Source: Mucilaginibacter aquariorum (GTDB lineage: Bacteria; Bacteroidota; Bacteroidia; Sphingobacteriales; Sphingobacteriaceae). Taken from it: a stretch of DNA of 64,000 nucleotides. Every line of letters begins with the position of its first letter. The stretch's first letter is position 1. Where the stretch lies: contig NZ_JANHOH010000008.1 of NCBI RefSeq assembly GCF_024498135.1, positions 124,001 to 188,000 of the forward strand. Reading direction: 5' to 3'. A program made the position numbers and the translations under genes. Under the pieces are notes generated by a model, which was given only the letters and a program-made list of their open reading frames with translations, was not told the DNA's origin and did no database searches. Below are positions 19,911-46,425 of the stretch, piece after piece.

Positions 19911-19977
19911 AATAGTTGGCTTAAAACAAATATACTTAATATGAACAGAGGTTTTCGTTTAAAAACATATTGATACT

Positions 19978-20010
19978 TTTTGACTAATTTTTGATATGAT
20001 TTGGTTAATT
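19978..20010 (+). promoter_or_regulatory. Three-unit 11-bp repeat upstream of SusC (PUL 1), putative HTCS1 site
   Basis: Three contiguous 11-mers, TTTTGACTAAT, TTTTGATATGA and TTTGGTTAATT, end about 91 bases before the SusC ATG. The same element precedes the FG-GAP lipoprotein gene. A small palindrome, AACGGAT with ATCCGTT (20011-20029), follows immediately. It lies in the 191-base region shared with the divergent HTCS1 gene. Confidence 0.6.
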
Positions 20011-30107: not shown

Positions 30108-30140
30108 ATTAACATTTGTGCTATAAACTTTAACATCTGT
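30108..30140 (+). promoter_or_regulatory. Direct-repeat element upstream of the epimerase operon, putative HTCS2 site
   Basis: Two 12-mers, ATTAACATTTGT (30108) and TTTAACATCTGT (30129), begin exactly 21 bases apart and are separated by a stretch ending ATAAAC. By eye, 27 of 33 positions match the element at 41357. A -7-like TAGATTTA lies at 30167-30174. The element ends 109 bases before the ATG. Confidence 0.6.
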
Positions 30141-30249
30141 GGTATAATGGCTGGTAGGTCAATTAATAGATTTACCAGATTGTGTTAAACCAATAACCCT
30201 AAGTGTTTCTTCTGATTTTTTAATTAAAGACCTGTTAGTTGAACCGGTC

Positions 30250-31926
30250 ATGATCAAACCTATGACGAACTATTTTATTTTGTATTTGAACCGGATAAAT
30301 AGATATGACAACTTGTATTTGGCCAGGTTGTATCAATGGTTAAAGATATTGTCTATTACCAGCGTGCCACTTGCGCTATGCAATCCTAATTTAGCTTATG
30401 CACAGGGCCGGTTAAAAATTGCCAGCCAAATGCAAGCGTCAATGACCGATAAACTTTTAAAGCAATGGTACCCGCGTTCGATAGATAGTGTGGATGGTGG
30501 TTTCTTAAGTGCGTTCAGTTACGATTTTAAACCGGTTGGCAATCAGGATAAGATGATTGTTACCCAGGCCCGGCATGTATGGAGCAACGCTAAAGCTGCG
30601 CAGCTTTTTCCGGATGTTAAATATTACGCCGATGGTGCCAGACAAGGGTATTTGTTTTTGAAGAATGTTTTATGGGATAAGCAATACGGCGGCTTTTATA
30701 CCTATACCGATAGGCAGGGTAATGTAAAGAAGAGCAACTTTGCACCAAAGGAAGCTTACGGCAATTCATTTGCCTTATATGCTATGGCAGCTTACTACCA
30801 GCAATCGGGCGATACAAGTGCTTTAAACCTTGCTAAGCAGGAATTTGCGTGGCTGGAACATCATAGCCACGACCCGGTTAATAAAGGATACTTTCAGCAT
30901 ATGGAGCGCGATGGCACACCTATAAAAAGGCCAGCAGGTATGAGCGTCAATGCGGAGCTGGGGTACAAAGATCAAAATACTTCCATCCACTTATTAGAAG
31001 CCTTTACCGAACTGTACCAGGTTTGGCCGGATGAGCTTTTGAAAACCCGTTTGCAGGAAATGCTGACCTTACTTACCAATACTATTATCAACAAAAAAGG
31101 GTACCTGCAGTTGTTCTTTCAGCCGGATTGGACGCCGGTATCTTTAAGGGACTCTTCAGAAATTGCAATAAATAAATATAAAAGTATCGACCACGTCTCT
31201 TTCGGGCACGATGTGGAAACGGCTTATCTGATGCTGGAAGCATCTAATGTGCTTGGCGTGAAAGATAACACGGCTATTTTAAAGCTTGGTAAAAAAATGG
31301 TAGATCATGCGCTGGATAATGGCTGGGATAACCAGGTTGGAGGCTTTTACGACGAAGGGTTTTATTATAAAGATAAACCTGGCATCAGCATTTTGACCGA
31401 TACCAAAAACTGGTGGGCACAAGCGGAGGGATTAAATACACTGCTGATCATGAGCCATTATTACCCAAATGACCGGCACAAATATTACGGCAAGTTTTTA
31501 AAGTTGTGGAGCTATGTTCAAACTTATCTGATAGATGAGGAACACGGCGATTGGTACCAGGGCGGCCTTGATAAGCAGCCACAATATAAAACGGCGTTAA
31601 AAGGGCAGATCTGGAAAGGTACTTACCATACTTTACGGGCATTTATAAATTGTATAGCTCAGTTAGATCCCGATAAAATGCCACCGACTATACCCAAAAA
31701 CCTCAAAAGAAAAACTGAACAGGGTATAATTACGCTGAGCTGGAACAAATCAACCGACAATAACAAGATACTGGGATATAATATCTACAATGGCAATAAA
31801 CGAGTAGCCTTTACGCCGCTATCTCAAATAGAGATCAAAGTATCAGACCTGAGATCAATTTCAAATTTATCCCTGGATGTTGTAGATCTGCAGGGTAACA
31901 GATCGGCAAGGGGCCGGTTTAATTAG
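30250..31926 (+). CDS. Secreted AGE-family epimerase/isomerase with Fn3-like C-terminal domain
   Basis: 558 residues. The N-terminus has a late hydrophobic signal ending near NLAYAQ (about residue 52 from this ATG). An N-acylglucosamine-2-epimerase (alpha/alpha)6 barrel spans about 60-470 (YGNSFALYAMAAYYQ; SFGHDVETAYLML; NWWAQAEGLNTLL). A fibronectin-type-III-like domain follows from about 473 (ITLSWNKSTDNNKILGYNIYNG). In mannan degraders, AGE proteins act as mannobiose 2-epimerases, and GH26 lies two genes downstream, so that activity is the best guess. Such epimerases are normally cytoplasmic; export and the Fn3 tail are unusual. The start codon is uncertain. Confidence 0.85.
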   Translation: MIKPMTNYFILYLNRINRYDNLYLARLYQWLKILSITSVPLALCNPNLAYAQGRLKIASQMQASMTDKLLKQWYPRSIDSVDGGFLSAFSYDFKPVGNQDKMIVTQARHVWSNAKAAQLFPDVKYYADGARQGYLFLKNVLWDKQYGGFYTYTDRQGNVKKSNFAPKEAYGNSFALYAMAAYYQQSGDTSALNLAKQEFAWLEHHSHDPVNKGYFQHMERDGTPIKRPAGMSVNAELGYKDQNTSIHLLEAFTELYQVWPDELLKTRLQEMLTLLTNTIINKKGYLQLFFQPDWTPVSLRDSSEIAINKYKSIDHVSFGHDVETAYLMLEASNVLGVKDNTAILKLGKKMVDHALDNGWDNQVGGFYDEGFYYKDKPGISILTDTKNWWAQAEGLNTLLIMSHYYPNDRHKYYGKFLKLWSYVQTYLIDEEHGDWYQGGLDKQPQYKTALKGQIWKGTYHTLRAFINCIAQLDPDKMPPTIPKNLKRKTEQGIITLSWNKSTDNNKILGYNIYNGNKRVAFTPLSQIEIKVSDLRSISNLSLDVVDLQGNRSARGRFN

Positions 31927-31950
31927 GTCACACGTTTTTAATAGATAACC

Positions 31951-34470
31951 ATGATAAACATGTACAATAAAAAGGTATTAGTAGTTGCCTGCTTTTTAAT
32001 GGCGGCAATGGCTGCAAATGTTACAGTAGTTAAAGCTCAGACTAAGAAAGCTGCCGGGCAAATGATTCTGAACAAACTGGAATACCTGGAATATCAAGGC
32101 GTAAACGTAATGCTTGCGCACGATTTTTATCCAGAGGGGCACCAAGGTGGTGTGGGGATTATTCAAAACGGGCAGCGTGTGGCTACCAATGGTGATCTTA
32201 GATTGGAACCAACCCCGGGGCAATGGTCGCCTATCCCTAAAGTGGGGAAACGGGTTATTGATAAAGCCAAAAGCGAGGTAAGTGTCCGTATGGAATACCC
32301 TAACCCCGAGATGGATCGCAAAGGGTTCAATCCAATAATTTATCCAGATCTTAAATTTGCCTATAACATCCGCGTGCTGCCGGTAGGTAAATCCTTTAAA
32401 ATAATTATTGACCTTGATAAGCCTTTACCCGACGAGTGGATAGGGAGGGTAGGGTTTAATATCGAACTTTTCCCGGGCATACTCTATGGTAAATCCTATT
32501 ACATGGATAAGCAGTTTGGCATATTTACGCCACAAGCCAATGGGCAAATGTATAAAAGCCCTTATGGTGAAAATGAAGTAATGCCATTGGCTACAGGTAA
32601 AAAATTGACTGTAGCGCCCGAAGCCGACGGACAGCGGATGATCATTGAGAATTTAAAAGACAGTAATCTGCAACTGCTGGATGGTCGGGCTAAGCATAAC
32701 AACGGCTGGTTTGTGGTGCGCTCTTTAATTGCAAAAGGCGCCACAAAAAACGCGATAGAGTGGCTGGTTACGCCATATGCCATTGAAGGTTGGCAGTCGG
32801 CCCCTGTAGTACAAGTATCACAGGTAGGTTATCACCCCGCGCAACAAAAAATTGCCGTTATAGAACTTGATCGTAACGACAAAAGGCGGCTGTCCGTTTC
32901 ATTAATGCGTGTAGCTGAAAACGGCGGGTTAGAGACGGCTTTAAGAGCAGCCCCAACCGAATGGGGCGATTTTTTAAGATATCATTACCTGCAACTCGAT
33001 TTTACAAAGATCACAAAACCGGGCATGTATGTGGTAAAATACGGCGCTTATCAAACCGAGCCATTTCAGATAAGTAAAGATGTTTTTAAGAACGATGTTT
33101 GGCAGCCAACGTTAGAATATTTTATGCCTGCCCAAATGTGCCATATGCGTATCAACGATAAATACCGGGTATGGCATGGCTTATGTCACATGGACGATGC
33201 CCGTATGGCGCCTATTGATTCTAATCACTTTGATGGTTACATATCGGGGCATGATACGTTTACTAAGTTCAAACCCGGCGATAATGTCCCTTTTTTAAAC
33301 CGCGGTGCCTGGCATGATGCAGGCGATTTTGACTTGCGGGTAGAATCGCAGGCCGAGACGGTGCACGGGCTAACATTAGCTTACGAACAATTTGGCTCTA
33401 AGTATGATAACACTACTATCGATCAAAAAAGTCACCTGGTAGAGATCCAACAACCGGATGGGAAGCCCGATCTGTTGCAGCAGATAGAACATGGCTTATT
33501 GTCGATAACAGGAGGCTACCAGGCCATGGGCAGGTTTTACCGCGGCGTAATTGAACCAACTATAAGGCAGTATGTGCTATTAGGCGATGCCGCGAACATT
33601 ACCGATAATAAACCTTTTGTTACCAACGCGGTTAATACCGACCCGATATTAAACCAGCCCGCCCCGGCAGATGATCGTTGGGTATTTACGGAGGATAACC
33701 CGTCGCGCAGTTTGCAAACGGCTGCTGCTTTAGCTGCCGCCAGCCGCGTAATGAAGGGCTATAACGATACCCTTTCGGCACAGTGTCTGCAAATTGCTAA
33801 ACAGGTATGGCAAAATAATAAGGATTTTAAACCCATGCAGAAGGTGGCCTTAGCTACAGAGTTATTTATCACCACGAAAGATAAGGAATATGCAGATTTT
33901 TTAGTTGCCAATACAGCAGGAATTGCAGCAGGCATTGAATACAATGGCTGGCTGGTTAGCCGTACAATGGGTTTAATAGATAATAAAGAATACAAGGATA
34001 AAATTACCGATGCGGTTAAAAAGCTTTACGTGAAAATACAACAGCAAGGCAGTAAAACACCTTATGGCGTACCCTACGAGCCAAGTATTTGGGGCGCCGG
34101 TTGGGGGATACAAAATTTTGGTTACAGGCAGTACTTTTTATATGCCAACTTCCCCGATATTTTTACTGATGATTATATGCTCCATGCCATCAATTTTGTG
34201 TTGGGCTGTCATCCGGGGTCTAATACATCATCCTTTGCATCGGGTGTTGGTGCCAGATCAATGACCACGGCTTACGGCTTTAACCGGGCCGATCTGTCAT
34301 ACATTCCCGGTGGTATCACATCCGGTACAGCTTTGATCCGGCCAGATTTTCCGGAACTTCTAAACTGGCCATACTTGTGGCAACAGGGCGAATACGTGCT
34401 GGGGGGCGGTACATCAGATTACCTTTTCCTGGTAATGGCGGCCGACCATGTGTTAAATAAAAAGAACTAA
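31951..34470 (+). CDS. Glycoside hydrolase family 9 with N-terminal extension and Ig-like domain
   Basis: 839 residues, signal peptide ending near VVKAQ (about 30). Residues about 35-270 form a beta-rich module I do not recognise. The CelD-type Ig-like domain follows (about 273-365, VSQVGYHPAQQKIAVIE) and then the GH9 barrel. Catalytic-site signatures are HDAGDFD with D456 and D459, and a candidate acid E814 near the C-terminus (QQGEYVLGGG); the conserved GCHPGSNTSSFASGVG stretch is present. GH9 enzymes cut beta-1,4-glucan backbones of cellulose, xyloglucan or mixed glucans. It lies in the epimerase-GH26 operon, 18 bases before GH26. Confidence 0.88.
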   Translation: MINMYNKKVLVVACFLMAAMAANVTVVKAQTKKAAGQMILNKLEYLEYQGVNVMLAHDFYPEGHQGGVGIIQNGQRVATNGDLRLEPTPGQWSPIPKVGKRVIDKAKSEVSVRMEYPNPEMDRKGFNPIIYPDLKFAYNIRVLPVGKSFKIIIDLDKPLPDEWIGRVGFNIELFPGILYGKSYYMDKQFGIFTPQANGQMYKSPYGENEVMPLATGKKLTVAPEADGQRMIIENLKDSNLQLLDGRAKHNNGWFVVRSLIAKGATKNAIEWLVTPYAIEGWQSAPVVQVSQVGYHPAQQKIAVIELDRNDKRRLSVSLMRVAENGGLETALRAAPTEWGDFLRYHYLQLDFTKITKPGMYVVKYGAYQTEPFQISKDVFKNDVWQPTLEYFMPAQMCHMRINDKYRVWHGLCHMDDARMAPIDSNHFDGYISGHDTFTKFKPGDNVPFLNRGAWHDAGDFDLRVESQAETVHGLTLAYEQFGSKYDNTTIDQKSHLVEIQQPDGKPDLLQQIEHGLLSITGGYQAMGRFYRGVIEPTIRQYVLLGDAANITDNKPFVTNAVNTDPILNQPAPADDRWVFTEDNPSRSLQTAAALAAASRVMKGYNDTLSAQCLQIAKQVWQNNKDFKPMQKVALATELFITTKDKEYADFLVANTAGIAAGIEYNGWLVSRTMGLIDNKEYKDKITDAVKKLYVKIQQQGSKTPYGVPYEPSIWGAGWGIQNFGYRQYFLYANFPDIFTDDYMLHAINFVLGCHPGSNTSSFASGVGARSMTTAYGFNRADLSYIPGGITSGTALIRPDFPELLNWPYLWQQGEYVLGGGTSDYLFLVMAADHVLNKKN

Positions 34471-34488
34471 CCAGATAAACATAAACTT

Positions 34489-35481
34489 ATGAGACTTTAT
34501 ATCCTATTGGTTTTTATGCTGTTTAGCATTTGCGGCTATTCACAGCAACAGTTTGCCCCTGTAAATCCAAATACATCGGCAGAAGCAAGTCAGCTACTGT
34601 CCTACATCTACAGTATCAAAGGCAAACAGATCATTTCGGGTCAGCATAGTTATCCTTATCAACCTAACAGGCATATAGATAGCGTGAAAGCTATCACCGG
34701 TAAAGAGCCGGCGCTTTGGGGGAATGATTTTATCTGGAGCGGCACGCAGGATAAAGGACAAGACATTGTAAATGAAGCGATAAAAAAATATAAAGAGGGT
34801 AGTATTATTTGCCTGATGTGGCACCAGGGAAGACCGATTGACAACCCGCCCTATGGTTGGAAAGAGAGCGTACAGGCAAAACTAACCGATGAGCAATGGA
34901 ACGAATTGGTAACGCCAAACACCGAACTAAATAAAAGGTGGCTTAAACAGATCGATCAGGTAGCTGTGTGGTTAAAGCAATTGCAGGATGCAAAAGTGCC
35001 CGTGTTGTGGCGGCCATATCATGAAATGAACGGCGTTTGGTTTTGGTGGGGAAATAAAAGGGGCAAAAATGGTTTATCAAAATTATGGAGGATGATGTAT
35101 GATCGTTATACCAATTACCATAAACTAAATAACTTGATATGGGTTTGGGGAGCCAACGGTCCGCGGGATTTGCCAGAGGACGAAGCTTTCGCCTATAAAT
35201 ATTTTTACCCGGGCGCTAACTATGTTGATATTTTAGGTACCGATATATATAATGCCGATTACGAACAGAAAGACTATAACGAGTTATTGGCTTTAGCCAA
35301 AGGTAAACCCATTGCATTGACCGAAGTTGGAGAATTACCTAAGCCGGTTATCTTAAAATATCAGCCGGAATGGGTGTGGTTTATGGTTTGGGGCGATTGG
35401 CTGTGGACGCATAACCCGCGTAGTTTGGTGAAAGAAATATATGCACGGCCCGAAACCATCAACCTTGGCGATAAAAAGTAA
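34489..35481 (+). CDS. GH26 endo-beta-1,4-mannanase
   Basis: 330 residues with a signal peptide ending near CGYSQ (residue 19). GH26 catalytic residues are clear: acid/base E179 in RPYHEMNGVWFWWG and nucleophile E279 in ALTEVGELP. Length suits a single catalytic domain without carbohydrate-binding modules. It should hydrolyse beta-1,4-mannan or glucomannan to mannobiose and short oligosaccharides, supplying the epimerase two genes upstream and the MFS transporter downstream. That trio resembles the Bacteroides fragilis mannan pathway, although no GH130 phosphorylase is seen in this window. Confidence 0.92.
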   Translation: MRLYILLVFMLFSICGYSQQQFAPVNPNTSAEASQLLSYIYSIKGKQIISGQHSYPYQPNRHIDSVKAITGKEPALWGNDFIWSGTQDKGQDIVNEAIKKYKEGSIICLMWHQGRPIDNPPYGWKESVQAKLTDEQWNELVTPNTELNKRWLKQIDQVAVWLKQLQDAKVPVLWRPYHEMNGVWFWWGNKRGKNGLSKLWRMMYDRYTNYHKLNNLIWVWGANGPRDLPEDEAFAYKYFYPGANYVDILGTDIYNADYEQKDYNELLALAKGKPIALTEVGELPKPVILKYQPEWVWFMVWGDWLWTHNPRSLVKEIYARPETINLGDKK

Positions 35482-35611
35482 TTGTGGCTGATGAGTATTT
35501 ATTAATGAACTTATTGACAATTAATATATTGCCAAATATTATTAGTTTTAGAAAACCAATTTAGGTAGCCTGCTGCCTTGCTAAATTATAAACCCTTTAA
35601 CCTGATTAATT

Positions 35612-36865
35612 ATGATCACTATTGAACGTAACAAACTTTTTTGGGCAAGCTGCCTGGCTTTGATGGTAACCGCACTATCATTTGGCATTAGGGCCGGTAT
35701 AATGAATAAGTTAGGCACCAACTTTAATTTAACAACCGAACAGTTGGGCGTTATTACAGCGGCTGCGTTTTGGGGATTCCCGCTGGCTATTATTGTTGGC
35801 GGTTTTATAGTGGATATTATCGGCATGAAAAAACTGCTTGTAATGGCATTTGTATTTCATTTGGCCGGTATATGCCTAACCGTTTTTGCCACAGGTTACT
35901 GGACGTTGTTTATCTCCACTTTGCTTATAGGTATCGCAAATGGCACCGTCGAGGCGGCATGTAACCCCTTGGTAGCATCTTTATTTACTGATAATAAAAC
36001 CACCAAACTAAACCATTTCCACCTGTGGTTTCCTGGCGGGATAGTAATTGGAACTTTGCTGGTGCTGGCATTAAATTATATTAATATTGGATGGCAGGTA
36101 CAAGTTGCGGTAATGATAATACCCACACTTATCTATGGTTACTTATTTTACATTTTAGATTTCCCGGTTACCGAACGTGTTGCATCCGGTTATTCAGCCG
36201 GCGATATGTATAAGGCAACATTATCTCCTTTATTTGTTTTTATGTTCATCTGTATGTTTGGTACAGCGGTTACCGAGCTGTTTACCGGGCAATGGATAGA
36301 TGTGCTTTTAAAGAATGTAACCACTAACCCCATATTAATTTTAACACTCACAACCGGCGTTATGGTAATTGGGCGGGGTTTTGCAGGCCCTATAGTTCAC
36401 CGATTTTCCCCACAGGGAGTTTTGTTGATGTCGGCAGTAGTTGCTGCAATAGGGTTATACTTGTTAAGTACTTTAACCGGTAATTCCATATTTTTTGCAG
36501 CGTTGGTTTTTGGGGTGGGGGTATGTTATTTTTGGCCTACCATGATAGGTTTTGTTGCAGAATACATACCCAAATCTGGCGCGCTTGGGTTAAATCTTAT
36601 AGGTGGCGCGGGTATGTTTGCCGTTTCGGTTTACAGTATTTTTATGGGTAAACATTACGATGAATTAGTGTTAAAATATTTACCTGCCGGTAACCAGGCA
36701 TCAGATGAAGCGCTTAACAGTGCCAAAAGTTTGGCCGGGCCGGAAGTACTGCGGCTAACTTTAATTATACCAATTGTCTTAATCGTAGCCTTTACCGGGC
36801 TTAATATATACATCCGCTCAAAAAAAAGAAAACAAGCGCCTAATGTTAATATGGGGACTGTGTAA
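35612..36865 (+). CDS. Sugar MFS transporter (fucose/glucose permease-like)
   Basis: 417 residues with 12 predicted membrane segments. The N-terminal pattern (EQLGVITAAAFWGFPLAIIVGGFIVD as two adjoining segments) and GTVEAACNPLVASLF with HLWFPGGIVIG resemble the FHS sugar-permease branch of the MFS. It probably imports a mono- or disaccharide released by GH26 or the epimerase; mannobiose or its epimer is the guess. It is 130 bases from GH26, so it may have its own promoter or be read through. A strong terminator follows it. Confidence 0.85.
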   Translation: MITIERNKLFWASCLALMVTALSFGIRAGIMNKLGTNFNLTTEQLGVITAAAFWGFPLAIIVGGFIVDIIGMKKLLVMAFVFHLAGICLTVFATGYWTLFISTLLIGIANGTVEAACNPLVASLFTDNKTTKLNHFHLWFPGGIVIGTLLVLALNYINIGWQVQVAVMIIPTLIYGYLFYILDFPVTERVASGYSAGDMYKATLSPLFVFMFICMFGTAVTELFTGQWIDVLLKNVTTNPILILTLTTGVMVIGRGFAGPIVHRFSPQGVLLMSAVVAAIGLYLLSTLTGNSIFFAALVFGVGVCYFWPTMIGFVAEYIPKSGALGLNLIGGAGMFAVSVYSIFMGKHYDELVLKYLPAGNQASDEALNSAKSLAGPEVLRLTLIIPIVLIVAFTGLNIYIRSKKRKQAPNVNMGTV

Positions 36866-36906
36866 ATAGCTTTATTACAGTTTATTAATCGTTGTTGATG
36901 GTTTAA

Positions 36907-36941
36907 AAAGATAGCGCTCTCTGCAAAGAGGCGCTATCTTT
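36907..36941 (+). terminator. Rho-independent terminator after the MFS gene
   Basis: AAAGATAGCGC (36907-36917) pairs perfectly with GCGCTATCTTT (36931-36941), extended inward by CTCT/AGAG, and is followed by TATTTTT. Confidence 0.85.
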
Positions 36942-36989
36942 ATTTTTAGTTATTTAGTGTAGTAATTACATTTATTATTACCTTTAGTT

Positions 36990-37020
36990 AACAGTCGATA
37001 GCTCCCTATAGTTGACTGTT
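36990..37020 (+). promoter_or_regulatory. Inverted repeat just upstream of HTCS2
   Basis: AACAGTC (36990-36996) and GACTGTT (37014-37020) form an inverted repeat 14 bases before the HTCS2 ATG. It could be an autoregulatory site or a leader hairpin over the ribosome-binding region. Confidence 0.3.
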
Positions 37021-37034
37021 GACCAATTATAACT

Positions 37035-40000
37035 ATGCGTATAAAAATATATATATTATGTATATGGGCTTTTGCCATGCCTGCATATTTGCATGCGCAA
37101 AACAATAGTTATCAATTTTCTCATTTAGATATCACCAACGGCCTTTCTGATAACCAGGTTAACTGTATTTATAAGGATGAAAAAGGTTTTATGTGGTTTG
37201 GTACCACATCGGGCTTAAACCGGTACGATGGTAATAAGTTTAAAGTATTTAAACGCGATGTTAAAGACCCCAATTCACTTGCCGAGAACCACGTTATGCG
37301 TATTGCCGAAGGGCCGGGCAAAAAGTTATGGATCTTTACCCACAGTGATATTAGTATATATGACCCAACGGTAGAACGGTTTTCAAACAATATCGCTGCG
37401 GAGCTGTCGCATTATAAAATACCCGCCAACCCCATTACCCGTATTGAGAAGGATAAGCAGGGCGAATTTTGGTTTGCAACAAATAAAAAAGGCCTTTACC
37501 GCTATAGCCCTCAAACAGGCGGAACGGTTTTTTATAATGATTCGGGAAAATCGCCCGCAGTGCTGCATTCAAACCATGTAATAGATATGGTGGCTTCGCA
37601 GCCCAATTGTTTATGGCTTATTTACAATGATGGCATTATAGAGCAATTAGATACCAAGGCTAATAAAGTTTTGAAAAGGTATGATGGACTGGCTAAAGCC
37701 CTTGATACCAAACCCCGAAATTTTATCATGATAATGGATAACAAACAAAACCTGTGGGTATGTTCTGATGCCGGAACAATCGGAGTTTATTGTTATAAAA
37801 CGTTAGATAATAAGCTTGTTCATTACAGCAAGGATACTCCTGAGGGCAGGCTCAATTCAAATGTGATAACCAGTATTATCCAAACAGATGATGACAAAAT
37901 TTGGGTTGGATCAGATCATGGCGGCATTAATGTTATCGACCCTGTCACTAACAAGGTGTATTATATATTAAATAGAGCTGACGATGCCAAATCGTTAAGC
38001 GGTAACAGCATTTACCTTTACAAAGATAATACCGGAATTATTTGGGCGGGTACATTTAAGCAGGGGCTAAATTATTATCATCGGGGTATAATGCAGTTCC
38101 CACTTTATAAGCACCTTACCACCGATCCTAAAAGTTTGCCTTTTGAGGATATAAACAGCTTTGAAGAAGATGATAAGCAAAACTTATGGATAGGTACAAA
38201 CGGTAACGGCCTTATTTATTTTAACAGGGCTACGAACGCCTATACCCAGTTTAAACATGATCCATCAAACCCCAACAGCATTACCAGTGATATAATTGTA
38301 AGATTATATATCGACAAGAAAAAACGACTTTGGATAGGTACCTATTTTGGTGGCTTAGATTGCTACGATGGCAAAACATTTACACACTATCGTCACAACA
38401 AGAAAGATCCGGGCAGTTTGACGGATGACCGTGTATATACCATCATGGAGGATGCCGCGGGCGAACTTTGGGTAGGCACATTTGCGGGCGGGTTTAACGT
38501 TTTCGATCCAAAAACAAATTCTTTCCGGCACCCTAAATATCCCGGTAATTCTGATTATACCTCTGTTATTTACGAGGACAGGCAGCAGAATAAGTGGGTA
38601 GGTAGAGACCGGGGAATAGATGTTATCCTAAAAGGATCAAATAAGGTGAAGCATTACTTATCAATACCTAAAAATGTTAACAGCCTTGTAGGTAACGATG
38701 TAAATACTATTACCCAGGATAGAAAGGGGCTAATATGGATAGGTACAAAAGATGGTTTAAGCATATTAAATACCAAAACAAATAGCTTCTTAAATATTGA
38801 AGAAGGGGTGAATTTGCCCGCAAATAATGTATCAAACATTATTGAGGATAATGCCGGCCGGATGTGGGTAAGTACCACTAACGGGCTTGCAAGTATAATG
38901 CTTACCGAAGCCGGAGGTAAGTACAAAGTGGATATAAATAATTATAATGAATTGGACGGGTTGCAGGGCAGGGCATTCAATTTATATGCCGCCAAACGGC
39001 TAAAAAGTGGCGAATTAGTGTTCGGTGGTATACATGGCTTTAATTTGTTCGACCCCATTGTATTAAACACATTTAAGCCTAAGCCCAGCCTTGTGTTTAC
39101 CGATCTTAACTTATTTAACAAAAGCGTTGCAGTGGGCGATACCCTAAATGGCAAGGTAATTTTGACTAAAGCTCTTTCAGAAACTAAAGAAATTACCCTA
39201 CAACACAACCAAAATGTCTTTGATATCGAGTTTGCTGCTTTCGACTATTTTAACCCCAATAAAATAAAATTTGAGTATAAACTTGAAGGATTTGATAAAG
39301 GCTGGATCACTGCAACAGGCAATAATCGTAAGGCTACTTATACCAACCTTGATGGTGGCGATTACACTTTTAAGGTACGCGCCCAGGGAACCAATAATGA
39401 AGGTGAAATTTCACTGAATATTAAAGTGCTGCCCCCATTTTTCAAGTCAACCTTTGCCTATATCAGTTATTTTGTATTGCTGCTTAGCGGGTTGTTCTAT
39501 ATACGCCACCGCGGTATCCAAAAGCTAAAACGCCAGTTTGAAAGCGCGCAGGCAAGCATTGAAGCCGAACGCAAAATAGCACAGGAGCGCGAGGAAGCGC
39601 GTAGGATGCACCAGCTCGACCTGATGAAGATAAAGTTCTTTACCAATGTAAGCCACGAGTTTCGTACACCGCTATCACTTATTTTATCGCCTATTGATAG
39701 TCTTATTAAAACCGTTGATAAGGCCGATCAGCAAAGCCAGCTTGCCACTATTAAAAGAAATGGCAAAAGGCTTTTAAACCTGGTAAACCAACTGCTCGAT
39801 TTTAGAAAGATGGAGTATAATGAGTTAAAACTTAGTTTAAAGCAAGGTGATATAGTAAAGTTTATAAAAGAAGTTTCAGCATCGTTTATGGATGTTGCTC
39901 ATCAAAAAAAGATCGAATTTTTGATAGAAAGCGAGGTGTATTCTTATGTTACTAATTTCGATCATGATAAAATAGAGCGGATATTATTTAACCTGCTTTC

Positions 40001-41207
40001 TAATGCATTCAAATTTACCCCCTCAGGCGGGCAAATAAGTGTGATGTTAAATTTATATCGTTGCGGTATAAATGAGGAAAAAAATAATCTCGAGATAAAG
40101 GTAATTGATACCGGTATTGGCATCGCGACAGAAAATCAGGGCAAAATATTTGACCGGTTTTTTCAGGATGATATGCCCGAAAGTCTTTTAAACCAGGGAA
40201 GCGGGATAGGCCTGTCTATAACCAAGGAGTTTGTTAAAATGCAGGGCGGTTCAATTGAACTGGAGAGTGAACTTAATTATGGAAGCTGTTTTACGGTAAT
40301 ATTACCGGTTGAGCAGCAGTGCGAGAAAAAAGAACTTGAGGTGATTGCAGAAACGGGCGCTGAGGCCCTTGTGCCTGCTACATCTAAAATGAACCCGGGC
40401 CTGGCAGGTGCAGGTAAAAAGGCTACTATTTTATTGATAGAAGATAATGATGACCTGCGGTTTTATTTGAAGGATAATTTAAAAAACAGTTTTCACATCA
40501 TTGAGGCTGTTAATGGTAAGGATGGATGGCAAAAAGCGCTCTCGATGCATCCAAAACTTATAGTTAGCGATATAAGCATGCCCGAAATGAATGGGATAGA
40601 GCTGTGTAAAAAGATAAAATCGGATGCACGTACGGCCCAGATCCCGGTGATATTGTTAACCGCGCTTACTACCGAGGAAGACCAACTGGCCGGATTAGAA
40701 AGCGGAGCGAACGATTACATATTAAAACCGTTTAACTTCGAGATCCTGCTTTCTAAGATCCATAACTCCTTACAAATGCACCAAACCCTTAAAACTACTT
40801 ATCAAAAGCAGATTGAGGTAAAGGCAGAGGATATTCATATTGTATCTGAGGATGAAAAGTTTTTAAAGAATGCATTTGAGTACATAGAACTTAATATAAC
40901 CAAAATTAATTTCTCTGTTGAGGAACTAAGCAAACAACTTAACCTGAGCAGAGTATCGTTATACAAAAAACTACTCACACTTACAGGCAAAACCCCGGTA
41001 GATTGCATCCGAACAGTAAGATTAAAAAGAGCGGTGCAGTTGTTAGAAAAGAGCCAGTTAAGCATTGCCAATGTTGCTTACGAAGTTGGCTTTAATAACC
41101 CCACCTATTTTTCAAAAGTTTTTAAGGAAGAGTACGGTATACTGCCTTCTGAATATGTAAACCAACATCGCAAAAATAAAAAGGAGCCGTTAGAAACCAT
41201 CCTTTAA
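37035..41207 (+). CDS. Hybrid two-component system regulator (HTCS2)
   Basis: 1390 residues with the same architecture as HTCS1: signal peptide (ends near LHAQ, about 22), propeller repeats (KGFMWFGTTSGLNRYDG and many more), Y_Y_Y domain (about 715-795), membrane segment near 800-825, a coiled linker, HisKA with H874 (VSHEFRTPL), HATPase_c (GSGIGLSIT), receiver with D1179 (SDISMP) and AraC-type HTH (about 1285-1380). It lies in the same direction as, and directly before, SusC/SusD/GH31, and after the mannanase genes. The 21-bp-spaced repeats at 30108 and 41357 are its likely targets. Confidence 0.95.
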   Translation: MRIKIYILCIWAFAMPAYLHAQNNSYQFSHLDITNGLSDNQVNCIYKDEKGFMWFGTTSGLNRYDGNKFKVFKRDVKDPNSLAENHVMRIAEGPGKKLWIFTHSDISIYDPTVERFSNNIAAELSHYKIPANPITRIEKDKQGEFWFATNKKGLYRYSPQTGGTVFYNDSGKSPAVLHSNHVIDMVASQPNCLWLIYNDGIIEQLDTKANKVLKRYDGLAKALDTKPRNFIMIMDNKQNLWVCSDAGTIGVYCYKTLDNKLVHYSKDTPEGRLNSNVITSIIQTDDDKIWVGSDHGGINVIDPVTNKVYYILNRADDAKSLSGNSIYLYKDNTGIIWAGTFKQGLNYYHRGIMQFPLYKHLTTDPKSLPFEDINSFEEDDKQNLWIGTNGNGLIYFNRATNAYTQFKHDPSNPNSITSDIIVRLYIDKKKRLWIGTYFGGLDCYDGKTFTHYRHNKKDPGSLTDDRVYTIMEDAAGELWVGTFAGGFNVFDPKTNSFRHPKYPGNSDYTSVIYEDRQQNKWVGRDRGIDVILKGSNKVKHYLSIPKNVNSLVGNDVNTITQDRKGLIWIGTKDGLSILNTKTNSFLNIEEGVNLPANNVSNIIEDNAGRMWVSTTNGLASIMLTEAGGKYKVDINNYNELDGLQGRAFNLYAAKRLKSGELVFGGIHGFNLFDPIVLNTFKPKPSLVFTDLNLFNKSVAVGDTLNGKVILTKALSETKEITLQHNQNVFDIEFAAFDYFNPNKIKFEYKLEGFDKGWITATGNNRKATYTNLDGGDYTFKVRAQGTNNEGEISLNIKVLPPFFKSTFAYISYFVLLLSGLFYIRHRGIQKLKRQFESAQASIEAERKIAQEREEARRMHQLDLMKIKFFTNVSHEFRTPLSLILSPIDSLIKTVDKADQQSQLATIKRNGKRLLNLVNQLLDFRKMEYNELKLSLKQGDIVKFIKEVSASFMDVAHQKKIEFLIESEVYSYVTNFDHDKIERILFNLLSNAFKFTPSGGQISVMLNLYRCGINEEKNNLEIKVIDTGIGIATENQGKIFDRFFQDDMPESLLNQGSGIGLSITKEFVKMQGGSIELESELNYGSCFTVILPVEQQCEKKELEVIAETGAEALVPATSKMNPGLAGAGKKATILLIEDNDDLRFYLKDNLKNSFHIIEAVNGKDGWQKALSMHPKLIVSDISMPEMNGIELCKKIKSDARTAQIPVILLTALTTEEDQLAGLESGANDYILKPFNFEILLSKIHNSLQMHQTLKTTYQKQIEVKAEDIHIVSEDEKFLKNAFEYIELNITKINFSVEELSKQLNLSRVSLYKKLLTLTGKTPVDCIRTVRLKRAVQLLEKSQLSIANVAYEVGFNNPTYFSKVFKEEYGILPSEYVNQHRKNKKEPLETIL

Positions 41208-41356
41208 TTACTGCCAATTTATCCAATTTGCACCTCACTACAGGGTGCCTCCATCACTGCAAATAAGCTGTCTCCTATCACCATAAAAAATTAATAGTTT
41301 TTAAAGATGTTTTTCATTCTAATTATAATTATCTGAAAATAAGGCACTTATAACAG

Positions 41357-41389
41357 GTTAACATTTGTTACATAAACGTTAACATTTGT
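41357..41389 (+). promoter_or_regulatory. Direct-repeat element upstream of SusC (PUL 2), putative HTCS2 site
   Basis: GTTAACATTTGT occurs identically at 41357 and 41378, 21 bases apart (two helical turns), and both copies are followed within the element by a related spacer. A -7-like TATATTTT lies at 41413-41420. The element ends 105 bases before the SusC ATG, almost the same geometry as the copy at 30108. Confidence 0.62.
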
Positions 41390-41494
41390 GGCATCCCTTC
41401 TAATTATACTCTTATATTTTTAGTTCGCATTAATCAGCAGATCCAAAACGGATAGATCTGATAGATAGCAAACCAATTAAAACTAATATAAAGT

Positions 41495-44400
41495 ATGATG
41501 AGAAAACTACAAATTAAACATTTTGTGGCACTTATCGGATTAAGCTTATCGCTGTTGATAAGTATGTCCGGTTATGCCCAAAACCGACAGATCACCGGAA
41601 CGGTTACATCCGCCGAAGGAGTTGTTCCGGGAGCTTCAGTTGCCGTAAAGGGGACTACCATAGGTGTTATGACCGATGCTAATGGAGCTTTCAGATTAGC
41701 AGTTCCGGAAAATGCAACCCTGGTTATAAGTATGATCGGATACAATACCCAGGAAATGGCCATAGGGGCAAGCAACTCTTATAATATAAAATTGACAGCC
41801 AATGTAAGCGCCCTAAATGAGGTTGTTGTAGTGGGTTACGGTACTTCCAGGCGTAAAGATCTTACAGGTTCTGTAAGCTCTGTTACCGCAGACCAGGTAG
41901 CAAAGGTACCTGTTACCGCATTAGATCAGGCTTTACAAGGCCGTTCATCGGGCGTGCAGGTAACTAATAATGATGGTGCCCCGGGCAGCGGCGTTACGGT
42001 ATTGATACGTGGCGTTGGTAGTTTGGGTAGTAACGATCCCTTGTATGTAGTTGATGGTTACCCAATAACCGGCGGCCTTAACAATATTAACCCCAACGAT
42101 ATTGCATCAATGGATATATTGAAGGATGCATCGGCCACTGCCATATATGGTGTGCGTGCATCAAACGGTGTTGTTATTATTACCACCAAAAAGGGAAGAA
42201 AAGATGGTGTTGAGGTATCTCTTGATGCTTACACATCTGTACAATCTGAACCAAAAAAATACAAGGTATTAAATGCTGAGCAGTGGGCCACACTTGCAAA
42301 CCAAACCCCGGGGTTTGATCGTTTGCCTGAATGGGCCAATCCCTCAGCCCTGCAAAATGTAAACTGGCAGGACGAAGTTTATCGTACTGGCTTAAGGCAA
42401 AATTACAACTTAGCTGTCCGCGGTGGAAGCGAAAAAGTACAGGCAGCATTTTCTGCAGGCTACTTCGATCAAAAGGGTGTAGTGTTGGGTTCTTATTTTA
42501 AAAGAATTAACATGGGGTTGAATCTTGATTACACAGCTACAAAATGGCTTAAATCATCATCAAGCGCCAAATACTCACGTCAAAACAGTAACAACCCATT
42601 TGGTACAGGTGCTTTGGCTACCTTAAGCGAGCTAATACCAACTATAGGTGGTAACAAGCTTACCAATAAAGCTAAAGATGAAAACGGTAATTATGGTTTC
42701 TATGATCCGGTAAATACTTATGTTAAAAGCTGGAATAATCCACTATACACTATCGAAACCCAGGATGCAAAAAATTTAACTAATTACTTTTTGGGCACTA
42801 CCTCATTAGAGGCCACTTTGATAGATGGATTAAAGATCAAAACAAATTTAGGGGTTAATACCACCGATTATTCGGGTTACTTTTTTACACCTTCGGATAC
42901 CCGTTCTTTAGATCAATATGGTGTTGCAAGCCCTAACCTTCAAAACACTTACTCGCAAAGTGCAAACAACACATTCGAGTGGTTATGGGAGAACACTATA
43001 TCTTACTCTAAAACTTTTGGCGACCATGCAATTGATTTTGTGGGCGGTGTTTCTCAACAGGAAAACACTTTCCGCCAGGTGGGTGGTAGTGGCAGAAATA
43101 TGATTAGTGATGCCGTAAGGGACTTAGGACAAGTTGAAAATCTGATTGCATTTGGCAACAAGCAAACGTTTACGCTTGCTTCGCAGTTTGGAAGATTAAA
43201 CTACAAGTTTAAAGATAAATACCTTCTTACAGCGACAGTAAGGCGCGATGGTTCATCAAAGTTTTATAAAGGCAATCAATATGGTGTGTTTCCTTCGGGT
43301 TCAATCGCCTGGAGAGCAAAGGAAGAATCATTTTTAAAAGAGGTTAACTTTCTTTCCGATTTAAAATTCAGGGCCAGTTATGGTGAAGTGGGTAACCAGG
43401 CCGGTATCAGGCCATTCCAATACCTTGCCAGGTATAGTTCTGGCGGGCCGGCCACATCAGGTACAAACGTAGGCTATCCGTTTGGCGATACTTACCAAAA
43501 TGGTTTGGCTTATGTAAATCTTGATAATCAGGGTTTAACTTGGGAAACTTCAAGGCAAACAGACATTGGTTTAGACGCGGCATTTTTAAATGGCGACCTT
43601 ACCTTAACGCTTGATTATTACAGAAAAGATTCTAAAGACTTTTTGTTACAGATTCCAACAGCATCACAATCAGGTGTAACACAATCGGCCCAAAACGCGG
43701 GTAGTATCAGAAACCAGGGATTCGAGATCTCTATAAACTACAGGCATGCTATAAACGACTTTAGATATGGCTTAGGTTTAAACCTTACTACGGTTAACAA
43801 TGAACTGTTGAGCATTACTAAAAATACAAGATTTATAGGCAACCTTGTAAACTTAACTACCCCGGCAAATGGATGGCAGCAGTTTAGCCAAACTAATATT
43901 GGCCAGCCTGTAGGTGAATTTTACGGTTACAAAAGCGTAGGTATATTCCAATCGCAGCCCGAGATTAATGCACTGGATACAAAAGCACCTGATGGGCACT
44001 ATCAGGGTAATGCAGCCCAACCAACCCAGCCCGGCGATCGTAAATTTGCAGACATTAATGGTGATGGGCAGATCACTGCTGATGACCGTACAAGCTTAGG
44101 AAGCCCTATTCCTAAATTTTATGGTGGTTTTAATCTTGATCTTGCTTACAAGGCATTTGATTTTAACGCGTTCTTTTACGGTAGCTATGGTAACAAAATA
44201 TTTAATTACCAGGCGCGTAACTTAGAGAGTTTCCAGGCACCGGGCTTTGTTGGTATACAAAACGTGAGTGTTGATTATTATCAAAACCACTGGTCTCCAA
44301 CCAACCCGTCTAACCGCTATGCACGCGTTAATTATAATGATGATGTAAGCGCTAACAACGTAGCATCAAGTATATATGTTGAAAATGGCAGTTACCTGCG

Positions 44401-44665
44401 TTTACGTAACGTTACATTAGGGTATACCCTTCCATCTAACATTGCAAAGAAACTTACCTTAAACAGGGTTAGGTTATATATTGCCGCACAAAACCTGTTC
44501 ACTATTACTAAATACAGTGGTCTTGATCCGGAAATTGGTCAGCCAACCGGTACAGATCCTAATAATAATAATAGTTCTGCAAATAACCCTACAGCATCGG
44601 GTGTTGATGTAGGTACTTATCCGTCATCGAAGTTCTACACGGTGGGTTTAAATGTGACATTTTAG
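41495..44665 (+). CDS. SusC/RagA-family TonB-linked outer-membrane transporter (PUL 2)
   Basis: 1056 residues: signal peptide ending near SGYAQ (about 29), carboxypeptidase-regulatory-like domain (about 32-105), plug (VVVVGYGTSRRKDLTGS; PLYVVDGYP; DILKDASATAIYG; VVIITTKKG) and a barrel ending in VGLNVTF. It forms the import complex with the SusD encoded 27 bases downstream. The low-complexity NNNNSSANN stretch near the C-terminus is an extracellular loop, not damage. Substrate is inferred to be a hemicellulose fragment from the GH31, GH9 and GH26 neighbours. Confidence 0.95.
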   Translation: MMRKLQIKHFVALIGLSLSLLISMSGYAQNRQITGTVTSAEGVVPGASVAVKGTTIGVMTDANGAFRLAVPENATLVISMIGYNTQEMAIGASNSYNIKLTANVSALNEVVVVGYGTSRRKDLTGSVSSVTADQVAKVPVTALDQALQGRSSGVQVTNNDGAPGSGVTVLIRGVGSLGSNDPLYVVDGYPITGGLNNINPNDIASMDILKDASATAIYGVRASNGVVIITTKKGRKDGVEVSLDAYTSVQSEPKKYKVLNAEQWATLANQTPGFDRLPEWANPSALQNVNWQDEVYRTGLRQNYNLAVRGGSEKVQAAFSAGYFDQKGVVLGSYFKRINMGLNLDYTATKWLKSSSSAKYSRQNSNNPFGTGALATLSELIPTIGGNKLTNKAKDENGNYGFYDPVNTYVKSWNNPLYTIETQDAKNLTNYFLGTTSLEATLIDGLKIKTNLGVNTTDYSGYFFTPSDTRSLDQYGVASPNLQNTYSQSANNTFEWLWENTISYSKTFGDHAIDFVGGVSQQENTFRQVGGSGRNMISDAVRDLGQVENLIAFGNKQTFTLASQFGRLNYKFKDKYLLTATVRRDGSSKFYKGNQYGVFPSGSIAWRAKEESFLKEVNFLSDLKFRASYGEVGNQAGIRPFQYLARYSSGGPATSGTNVGYPFGDTYQNGLAYVNLDNQGLTWETSRQTDIGLDAAFLNGDLTLTLDYYRKDSKDFLLQIPTASQSGVTQSAQNAGSIRNQGFEISINYRHAINDFRYGLGLNLTTVNNELLSITKNTRFIGNLVNLTTPANGWQQFSQTNIGQPVGEFYGYKSVGIFQSQPEINALDTKAPDGHYQGNAAQPTQPGDRKFADINGDGQITADDRTSLGSPIPKFYGGFNLDLAYKAFDFNAFFYGSYGNKIFNYQARNLESFQAPGFVGIQNVSVDYYQNHWSPTNPSNRYARVNYNDDVSANNVASSIYVENGSYLRLRNVTLGYTLPSNIAKKLTLNRVRLYIAAQNLFTITKYSGLDPEIGQPTGTDPNNNNSSANNPTASGVDVGTYPSSKFYTVGLNVTF

Positions 44666-44692
44666 ATGATATTAAAGTAACAGAAACGAATA

Positions 44693-46309
44693 ATGAAAAA
44701 GAAAATATATTTATATATACTAACAGTAGGACTGATAGTATTGATTCCCTTCAGTTGTAAAAAAGGGTTTCTGAATCAAATAGATTCATCTAACCCAACA
44801 GAGCAAGTCTTATTTAACAAGCCTTCGGATGGTATTGCACTTGTTAACGCCATATACGATACCTACCAAAATGCCGACCTGTTAAAAAAGTCGCTTTGGT
44901 ATTATGCCAATTTCCAGTCGCACGATTTTTTTAACTGGGGTAACGACAGGTTTTATAATACATATGCTATACCATCTACATTTGGCGGTATACAGGTGTT
45001 TTGGCAGCGTGCCTATATTGGCATTGCCAGGGCAAACTCGGCTATTGAAATATTGAAAACAATGAAGGACAAAGGCGTACTTACCGAGGCGCTGGCTAAC
45101 CGATTAACAGGTGAAGTGTACTTTCTGCGCGGAATGACCTATTACTATCTTGCAGCGAGCTTTGGTGGTGTACCGTTAGAGCTAAAAAGCGGCGCAAATG
45201 ATGGTTTAAAGCCCAGGAGCACACAGGATGAGGTATTTGCACAAGTGGAATCTGACTTAAAAACTGCAGCAGACTTGCTACCCTGGAAAGAGGAGTATGA
45301 TGCCAAAGAACTTGGTCGCGCTACAAAAGGGGCGGCGCTTGGATATTTGGGGTCGGCACAAATGTGGCTAAAAAAATATCCTGAGGCTTTGGCTAATTTT
45401 AATTTGCTTAATGGCAAATACAGCCTGATGTCTGATTTTATGCAGATACATGAATACAAAAATAAAAATAAGGAGGAAGCGCTTTTTGAAATACAGTTTA
45501 TTGTTGCCGGAACACAGAGCTGGGGCCCAAGTAATGAAGTCGCATGGATAGGTACTTTTGGCATGCCGGAAGAGGTGTCTAACTTTGGATATGATTACGG
45601 TAATAAAGGTTTATATGATGGCTTTCAGACCGGCGACTTACGAAAAGCGGCAACCATTATAGGCCCTGGTGATATTAACCCAAGCCCGGCTATAATTGCC
45701 AGAGGAGGTATAAAATCTTATCCGTTAGTAATTGCAGGTTTTGCAAGCAGCGATGCTGCTGTTAAAGCCAAATATACAGGCGACGATGGCAAGATCATTA
45801 ATACATGCGGTACTGTTACACGCCCGTGGGTAGGCTCTGATAATACTATCCCAAGAAGCGGTTATTACTGCGAAAAAATGTGGCGCGATCCAACACTGGA
45901 TGGGAACTCCGGTAACGGCAATATTTTTGGCGCGCAAAATCAGATCCTGTTGCGCTACGGAGAAATTCTGTTAAGTAAAGCAGAATGCCAAGCCAGAACG
46001 GGTGATAACGCAGGTGCCTTAGCTACACTAAAAATTCTTCGTGACAGGGCTTTTGGCGGCAGCGCGCCAGCGGTGTATATAAGTGAAGGTAAAGTGATAA
46101 CCGATCCGTTGCAAATGATATATCACGAATACAGGCACGAGCTTACGGGCGAATATTCAACATTCTATAATTTGCGTAGGGCAGGAGTTGCAACATCCTT
46201 TATTAAGGAAGTTTACGATATTGACATTCCTGCGGGTCATGAACTATACCCTATCCCTCAATACGAGATAGGGCTTAATCCAAACCTGGCGCAAAATCCT
46301 GGTTACTAA
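44693..46309 (+). CDS. SusD/RagB-family surface glycan-binding lipoprotein (PUL 2)
   Basis: 538 residues with lipobox IPFSC (C22), a typical SusD length. SusD features: the TPR-like N-terminal region (EVYFLRGMTYYYLAASFGGVPLEL) and the C-terminal region (NQILLRYGEILLSKAECQARTG; YHEYRHELTGEYSTFYNLRRAG). It binds glycan at the cell surface as the lid of the upstream SusC. A terminator-like hairpin follows, so the GH31 gene may depend on read-through or its own promoter. Confidence 0.94.
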   Translation: MKKKIYLYILTVGLIVLIPFSCKKGFLNQIDSSNPTEQVLFNKPSDGIALVNAIYDTYQNADLLKKSLWYYANFQSHDFFNWGNDRFYNTYAIPSTFGGIQVFWQRAYIGIARANSAIEILKTMKDKGVLTEALANRLTGEVYFLRGMTYYYLAASFGGVPLELKSGANDGLKPRSTQDEVFAQVESDLKTAADLLPWKEEYDAKELGRATKGAALGYLGSAQMWLKKYPEALANFNLLNGKYSLMSDFMQIHEYKNKNKEEALFEIQFIVAGTQSWGPSNEVAWIGTFGMPEEVSNFGYDYGNKGLYDGFQTGDLRKAATIIGPGDINPSPAIIARGGIKSYPLVIAGFASSDAAVKAKYTGDDGKIINTCGTVTRPWVGSDNTIPRSGYYCEKMWRDPTLDGNSGNGNIFGAQNQILLRYGEILLSKAECQARTGDNAGALATLKILRDRAFGGSAPAVYISEGKVITDPLQMIYHEYRHELTGEYSTFYNLRRAGVATSFIKEVYDIDIPAGHELYPIPQYEIGLNPNLAQNPGY

Positions 46310-46331
46310 TATTTGATTGGTTATATTTAGT

Positions 46332-46366
46332 AAAGGCCCTCTCTGTAATGGAGGGGCCTTTTTTTT
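46332..46366 (+). terminator. Terminator after SusD (PUL 2)
   Basis: AAAGGCCCTC and GAGGGGCCTTT form a GC-rich stem with one bulge around an 8-9-base loop, followed by a run of eight or more T. It separates SusCD from GH31. Confidence 0.8.
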
Positions 46367-46425
46367 CTCATTTTTTATTGCATCGCTCAATACCTTACAT
46401 GAAGTGCTGAGCATATATAACAAAC

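Follow-up and report, generated by a model that had tools for sequence, protein, structure and literature searches.

How can two transcripts that start some 11 kb apart answer to a single glycan sensor? The question is raised by a 64,000-nucleotide stretch of the Mucilaginibacter aquariorum genome (contig NZ_JANHOH010000008.1, positions 124,001 to 188,000; hereafter "the window"), in which a putative epimerase-GH9-GH26 operon (GH, glycoside hydrolase), perhaps ending in an MFS transporter gene, and a susC2-susD2 pair are each preceded by a closely similar direct repeat. Between the two transcripts lies the gene for a hybrid two-component system (HTCS) regulator, HTCS2. We consider it very probable, from comparison of sequences, that both repeats are operator-promoter modules of HTCS2, that the epimerase-GH9-GH26(-MFS) and susC2-susD2 transcripts are co-activated, and that a second set of genes, polysaccharide utilization locus (PUL) 1, is controlled by its own regulator, HTCS1.

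In the mechanism we propose, HTCS2 would sense a periplasmic oligosaccharide and become phosphorylated. The kinase would keep the AraC-type helix-turn-helix (HTH) domains of HTCS2 together as a dimer, and these would then occupy the two units of each repeat head to tail, next to the promoter, and draw in RNA polymerase, so that both transcripts would switch on together; HTCS1 would read PUL1 through a different repeat.

Matching tandem repeats ahead of two transcripts

Both repeats are on the forward strand, each made of two copies 21 bp apart from start to start. Upstream of the epimerase gene (site 1) the copies are 30109-30119 (TTAACATTTGT) and 30130-30140 (TTAACATCTGT); upstream of susC2 (site 2) both copies, 41358-41368 and 41379-41389, read TTAACATTTGT. 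The segments 30108-30140 and 41357-41389 are identical at 27 of 33 bases, and the repeats end 109 bases before the ATG of the epimerase gene and 105 bases before that of susC2. The original prediction for this locus had described TTAACAT(T/C)TGT pairs with 21-base spacing, these same gaps and about 27 of 33 bases alike, and all of these coordinates and counts were reproduced exactly. It had also placed -7-like boxes at a similar distance, which agrees with boxes beginning 59 and 58 bases into the respective repeats.

A pattern scan for TTAACATYTGT-N10-TTAACATYTGT with up to three mismatches returned two matches in the window, both perfect, while shuffled windows gave a mean of 0.02 at the same tolerance and none of 100 shuffles reached two. 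Self-identity points to the same period: the best 17-mer at period 21 scores 15 in each of the two upstream gaps, a value equaled in none of 2000 shuffles, and other periods from 17 to 30 score at most 11 there (next best 10 and 11).

Association of the site with HTCS2 orthologues

We compared 80 loci, 32 of them with an HTCS at least 58.5% identical to HTCS2 (taken as orthologues) and 48 with a more distant HTCS; the close relatives are mostly Mucilaginibacter. A site was scored as a pair with at least 18 of 22 matching bases, with the reversed pattern as a control. At least one site was found in 28 of the 32 orthologue loci (41 sites, all on the HTCS2 strand; control 0), compared with 6 of the 48 more distant loci (6 sites; control 2). 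In a tree of 83 rows, a branch with support 100 separates the 33 HTCS2 rows, including the window, from all others. Sites are present in 29 of these 33 rows (the window counted by assignment) versus 7 of the other 50, one of the seven being the HTCS3 locus of M. aquariorum itself, through a 9+9 match within coding sequence. Furthermore, in a set of 61 genomes from the genus, 14 of the 22 that have an HTCS2 orthologue also have a site with no more than one mismatch, compared with 1 of the 39 that lack the orthologue (Fisher p = 1.8e-7), where HTCS2-bearing status refers to the matches listed, gene fragments may be missed and two orthologues are known from partial genes.

Alternatively, the repeats could be read by a separate one-component AraC-type activator rather than by HTCS2. 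A gene for such a protein of 295 amino acids (e.g., L168 8509-9396) adjoins HTCS2 in 9 of the 32 orthologue loci, a site lies 55-70 bases upstream of a gene of that size in L163, L166, L168 and L204, and M. aquariorum has a 67% relative on contig C6 (C6:160327-161190). However, the window has no such gene, the HTH of HTCS2 being the sole match there, and 20 of the 28 site-bearing loci lack one in the examined stretch. About 7 kb separate the C6 relative from the gene for another paralogue, HTCS4, and the sequence upstream of this relative scores only 14/22. A separate activator is, in our view, highly improbable.

Distance from the repeat to the -7 box

Promoter geometry was examined in a gapless stack of 43 sites (41 from relatives and the two of the window), picked by the repeat alone. 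The stack has two conserved units of about 17 bases (TTAACATTTGTkdTAya), then 18 columns (39-56) with near-zero information, and then TAnnTTTA. For 40 of the 41 sites from relatives, the first base of a TAnnTTT[AG] box is base 57-59 of the repeat, exactly base 58 in 37 of them, whereas random positions in those loci gave 28 of 6400; the lone exception (L159 17750) has TATAATTTCA at the expected box position. Two tandem units with a 21-bp period (two helical turns) stand at a fixed distance, about 26 bp, upstream of a -7 box, and the period puts both units on the same face of the helix. If transcription starts just past the box, the centers of the units would fall at about -43 and -64, positions expected of an activator in contact with RNA polymerase.

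The -7 consensus of Bacteroides is given as TAnnTTTG in the available part of PMC7366714, and boxes at HTCS2 sites agree with this primary-sigma element of the Bacteroidota, except that the last base is mostly A. The sole conserved TTTG near -33 occupies columns 28-31, within the second unit and 26 bases ahead of the TA of the -7 box. A scan for sigma-70 promoters and terminators stayed at background (60 promoter-like hits against 56.1 expected and 20 terminator-like hits against 20.2 expected) and was not used.

This alignment also bears on whether the repeats are instead a repressor site, a feature of the mRNA leader, or a similarity inherited when an upstream region was duplicated. Such explanations could draw on the position of both repeats less than 150 bp from start codons and on the identity of the two upstream regions at 31 of 37 bases. 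Across the 43 sites, however, conservation ends after the units and returns only at the -7 box; the units lie upstream of that box and hence are probably untranscribed, and the spacing rule is kept ahead of genes from different families. We regard all three as extremely improbable. Under HTCS2 control, the 57-59-base rule would allow direct prediction of targets and design of reporters.

Genes that follow the site in relatives

The 32 orthologue loci include 19 homologues of susC2 (at least 50% identical), and 18 of these have a pair of at least 18/22 within about 330 bases upstream. The epimerase gene adjoins HTCS2 in four relatives. Upstream of it, sites score 22/22 in L157, 21 in L160 and 18 (weaker) in L072; in the fourth relative (L156/G006) one contig starts inside the epimerase gene and another ends with a GH127 gene followed by a perfect copy of the epimerase site of the window, 85 bases from the contig end. 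Elsewhere in relatives the site precedes GH31, GH26 or AraC-type genes, or HTCS2 itself, while GH26 and GH31 genes without a preceding site score 11-15. In L159, L173, L204, L208 and L210 it lies 221-241 bases upstream of HTCS2; no sign of autoregulation was seen in the window, where the best upstream scores are 13/22 for HTCS2 and 13 for the MFS gene.

Co-occurrence of site and orthologue, the 18 of 19 susC2 homologues, the epimerase sites and the fixed distance to the -7 box all support the original proposal that HTCS2 controls both the epimerase-GH9-GH26 operon and susC2-susD2. If correct, this makes the operator of a group of glycan sensors from environmental Bacteroidota precisely predictable, and ties separated transcripts to one sensor.

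Several observations weigh against HTCS2 control. Four of the 32 orthologue loci (L161, L164, L165 and L180) have no site within the examined DNA stretch, the susC2 homologue of L172 has none (best 16/22), and 8 of the 22 HTCS2-bearing genomes (among the matches listed) lack a site of at most one mismatch; genome G019 has such a site yet no HTCS2 among the matches listed. Relatives of the paralogue HTCS3 use the half-site TTAACATTTGK. The two transcripts are found together in few relatives, and other glycosidases follow the site elsewhere, which suggests that the regulon is broader and that the glycan may differ between species. Finally, the 58.5% identity cut was picked after the data were seen, although the tree nonetheless agrees with it.

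A different repeat for PUL1

PUL1 comprises genes for HTCS1, SusC1, SusD1, a DUF3823 protein, GH2 and GH127, and its tandem site upstream of susC1 has a 21-bp period of its own (Table 1). By itself this repeat is weak, its score being reached by 67 of 2000 shuffles, and the case for it comes from conservation: a pair matching a template from the PUL1 site at 28 or more of 34 bases adjoins 15 of 16 HTCS1 relatives and HTCS1 itself (16 of 17 loci; L130 is the miss), and a template-free scan recovers a repeat of this type in most HTCS1 relatives. A T-rich stretch is also conserved at about bases 60-66 of these repeats. Since the HTH regions of HTCS1 and HTCS2 are very different and HTCS1 has a separate conserved repeat, a division of the window between two regulators appears well founded, in line with the original assignment of PUL1 to HTCS1.

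The paralogues HTCS3 and HTCS4

The 6.0-Mb genome has six matches to the paired pattern with up to three mismatches: the two perfect ones in the window, one with a single mismatch on contig C9, and three with three. The C9 site (L003 1501-1532; C9:89805-89836) ends 83 bases upstream of an alpha-L-arabinofuranosidase gene, with a GH43 gene next. These two genes converge on a xyloglucan-type PUL (an SGBP-B xyloglucan-binding domain, two GH5 and a GH2) that encodes HTCS3, which is 53% identical to HTCS2. The C9 site looked like a target of HTCS2 in trans, a reading that we did not adopt: no pair of at least 17/22 lies near the 17 other matches of that enzyme in the stretches examined, the flanking ACCC resembles HTCS4-like sites, and HTCS3 is encoded in the same locus.

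The C9 site does bear on a further possibility, that the window sites are common to HTCS2 and HTCS3, such that either signal would drive both transcripts. Besides this third good site ahead of the arabinofuranosidase-GH43 pair, four HTCS3-like loci (L058, L059, L060 and L066) retain the first unit, TTAACATTTG[GT], and their regulators share the first HTH core, RVSLYK, with HTCS2. However, these loci read TTAACATTTG[GT]-10-TTATCAA, so that their second unit differs, and, as noted above, the double site is rare beside more distant HTCSs. The HTCS3 of M. aquariorum itself has RGSLYN and NTPKYFTKL where HTCS2 has RVSLYK and NNPTYFSKV, and upstream of its susC3 there is no clear 21-bp repeat of the HTCS2 kind, only a weak half-site by eye. 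Such shared control is therefore rather unlikely, and we retain HTCS2 as the predicted regulator of the window sites.

Among the 48 distant loci, 17 combine a TTRACATTTGK half-site, a -7 box and a large gene, the box being at base 49 in all 17, nine bases nearer than in HTCS2 sites. Fifteen of them (e.g., L185, L186, L197 and L201) read TTGACATTTGT-10-A[TG]CCACAAC, as does the HTCS4 locus of M. aquariorum (L011). Across paralogues the units form a series: a double TTAACATTTGT with HTCS2, TTATCAA with HTCS3-like regulators, and ATCCACAAC with a -7 box at base 49 with HTCS4-like ones. Tentatively, in this branch of HTCSs the unit TTRACATTTGK may hardly change, with the paralogues differing in the other unit and, in one group, also in the -7 distance. 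Specificity might then reside mainly in one half of the operator and allow partial cross-talk between PULs, with HTCS2, for example, also driving the arabinofuranosidase-GH43 genes; the absence of a clear repeat upstream of the organism's own susC3 counts against this doubtful extension. The series of paralogues is itself a natural source of data on divergence in the operator specificity of HTCSs.

Genes of the window and the likely glycan

Table 1. Predicted regulatory sites and genes of the window (positions are those of the window).
Feature	Position	Strand	Remarks
HTCS1	15921..19910	-	divergent from susC1
PUL1 tandem site (predicted HTCS1 target)	19970..20010	+	TTGATAC..TTTGACTAATT / TTGATAT..TTTGGTTAATT, 21-bp period, upstream of susC1
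Tandem HTCS2 site 1 (predicted)	30109..30146	+	two ~17-base units TTAACAT(T/C)TGTknTAT, 21-bp period, upstream of epimerase operon
-7-like box TAGATTTA, epimerase promoter	30167..30174	+	starts at base 59 of repeat
GlcNAc/cellobiose 2-epimerase-family protein	30250..31926	+	extra C-terminal domain matching chitinase A1 domain
GH9 glycosidase with CelD_N Ig-like domain	31951..34470	+	
GH26	34489..35481	+	closest solved relative GH26A (6q75)
MFS transporter	35612..36865	+	perhaps final operon gene; preceded by 130-bp gap
HTCS2	37035..41207	+	Reg_prop propeller, Y_Y_Y, HisKA, HATPase, receiver, AraC-type HTH
Tandem HTCS2 site 2 (predicted)	41358..41395	+	21-bp period as in site 1; upstream of susC2
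-7-like box TATTTTTA, susC2 promoter	41415..41422	+	starts at base 58 of repeat
SusC2	41495..44665	+	
SusD2	44693..46309	+	

The window holds the SusC/SusD pair, glycosidases and regulator by which a PUL is recognized (Table 1), and a GH31 gene follows susC2 and susD2. HTCS2 carries on one chain the sensor, HisKA, HATPase, receiver and AraC-type HTH that define an HTCS. Its H874 and D1179 are invariant across nine aligned sequences, and by position we take them to be the kinase histidine and the receiver aspartate, with phospho-site roles assigned from general knowledge.

The epimerase matches cellobiose 2-epimerases. Its N-terminal end is signal-peptide-like by eye, and its C-terminal domain matches chain 1k85 of chitinase A1, presumably an FnIII domain. 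Together these features suggest that the protein is exported; the cellobiose 2-epimerases known to us are cytoplasmic. The GH9 protein has 839 residues, of which about 280 at the N-terminus have no Pfam match; solved GH9 enzymes match it weakly, and it distantly resembles known endoglucanases and the xyloglucanase BoGH9A.

Among solved structures, the GH26 protein comes closest to GH26A (6q75; E = 9e-130). We take 6q75 to be the GH26A of a Muricauda beta-mannan PUL; the PDB code does not appear in the available part of PMC9860051. According to that text, the Muricauda enzyme showed no activity on commercial beta-mannan but did act on a mannan of diatom-bloom origin. Like the window, the beta-mannan PUL of Muricauda sp. 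MAR_2010_75 has GH26 enzymes, an epimerase, SusCD and an HTCS, but it also has GH130, GH5 and GH27, none of which was seen among window genes 30250-49284 (PMC9860051, in the part available). Of the markers of beta-mannan PULs, GH26 and the 2-epimerase are present; a Pfam scan of 18 window genes returned no GH130, and no search for GH130 covered the remaining window or the genome. The substrate is perhaps a beta-1,4-mannan or glucomannan, which we propose with low to moderate confidence as the least certain step of our interpretation.

Comparison with known HTCS control

A tandem layout of this kind has a classical counterpart. The araI1-I2 half-sites of AraC are 17-bp tandem units with a 21-bp period, adjacent to the promoter and bound by dimers of AraC-type HTHs. 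AraC is a soluble one-component regulator, whereas HTCS2 is fused to a membrane sensor kinase.

Within the HTCSs themselves, Ravcheev et al. (2013; PMC3878776, in the part available) predicted motifs for 16 of the 36 HTCSs of B. thetaiotaomicron, all of them direct repeats with a mean of 21 bp (e.g., 16-bp sites with a 5-bp spacer, or 14-bp sites with a 6-bp spacer). Those motifs precede susCD and linked operons of the HTCS locus, one HTCS can serve several operons, and related HTCSs have related motifs (PMC3878776). The window sites are likewise direct repeats of about 21 bp ahead of PUL operons, and are likewise kept, with misses, before orthologous targets in genomes with an orthologous regulator. 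Here, however, the organisms are Mucilaginibacter, the motif is TTAACATTTGTknTAya and its spacing from the -7 box was measured as well; we liken the two by repeat layout, not by motif letters. Binding has been reported for two such regulators: receiver-DNA-binding-domain proteins of BT4663 and BT4124 attach to susC promoters that hold predicted sites, and phosphorylation strengthens this binding (PMC11253607, in the part available). Both are hybrid sensor kinase-regulators like HTCS2, but they belong to heparin and rhamnogalacturonan systems.

Mucilaginibacter was absent among the matches listed in a literature search, which left out most subscription papers, so that the motif may already have been published. 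The review PMC10766802 held nothing further on HTCS motifs in its available part, and PMC12125979, considered as a precedent for HTCS direct repeats, was set aside since its available text concerns a Vibrio XylR-type regulator. Because HTCS direct repeats averaging 21 bp had already been predicted (PMC3878776) and promoter binding shown for two HTCSs (PMC11253607), the proposed HTCS2 site is not a new kind of element: it is a new example, in another family of Bacteroidota, of the direct-repeat HTCS control predicted in 2013.

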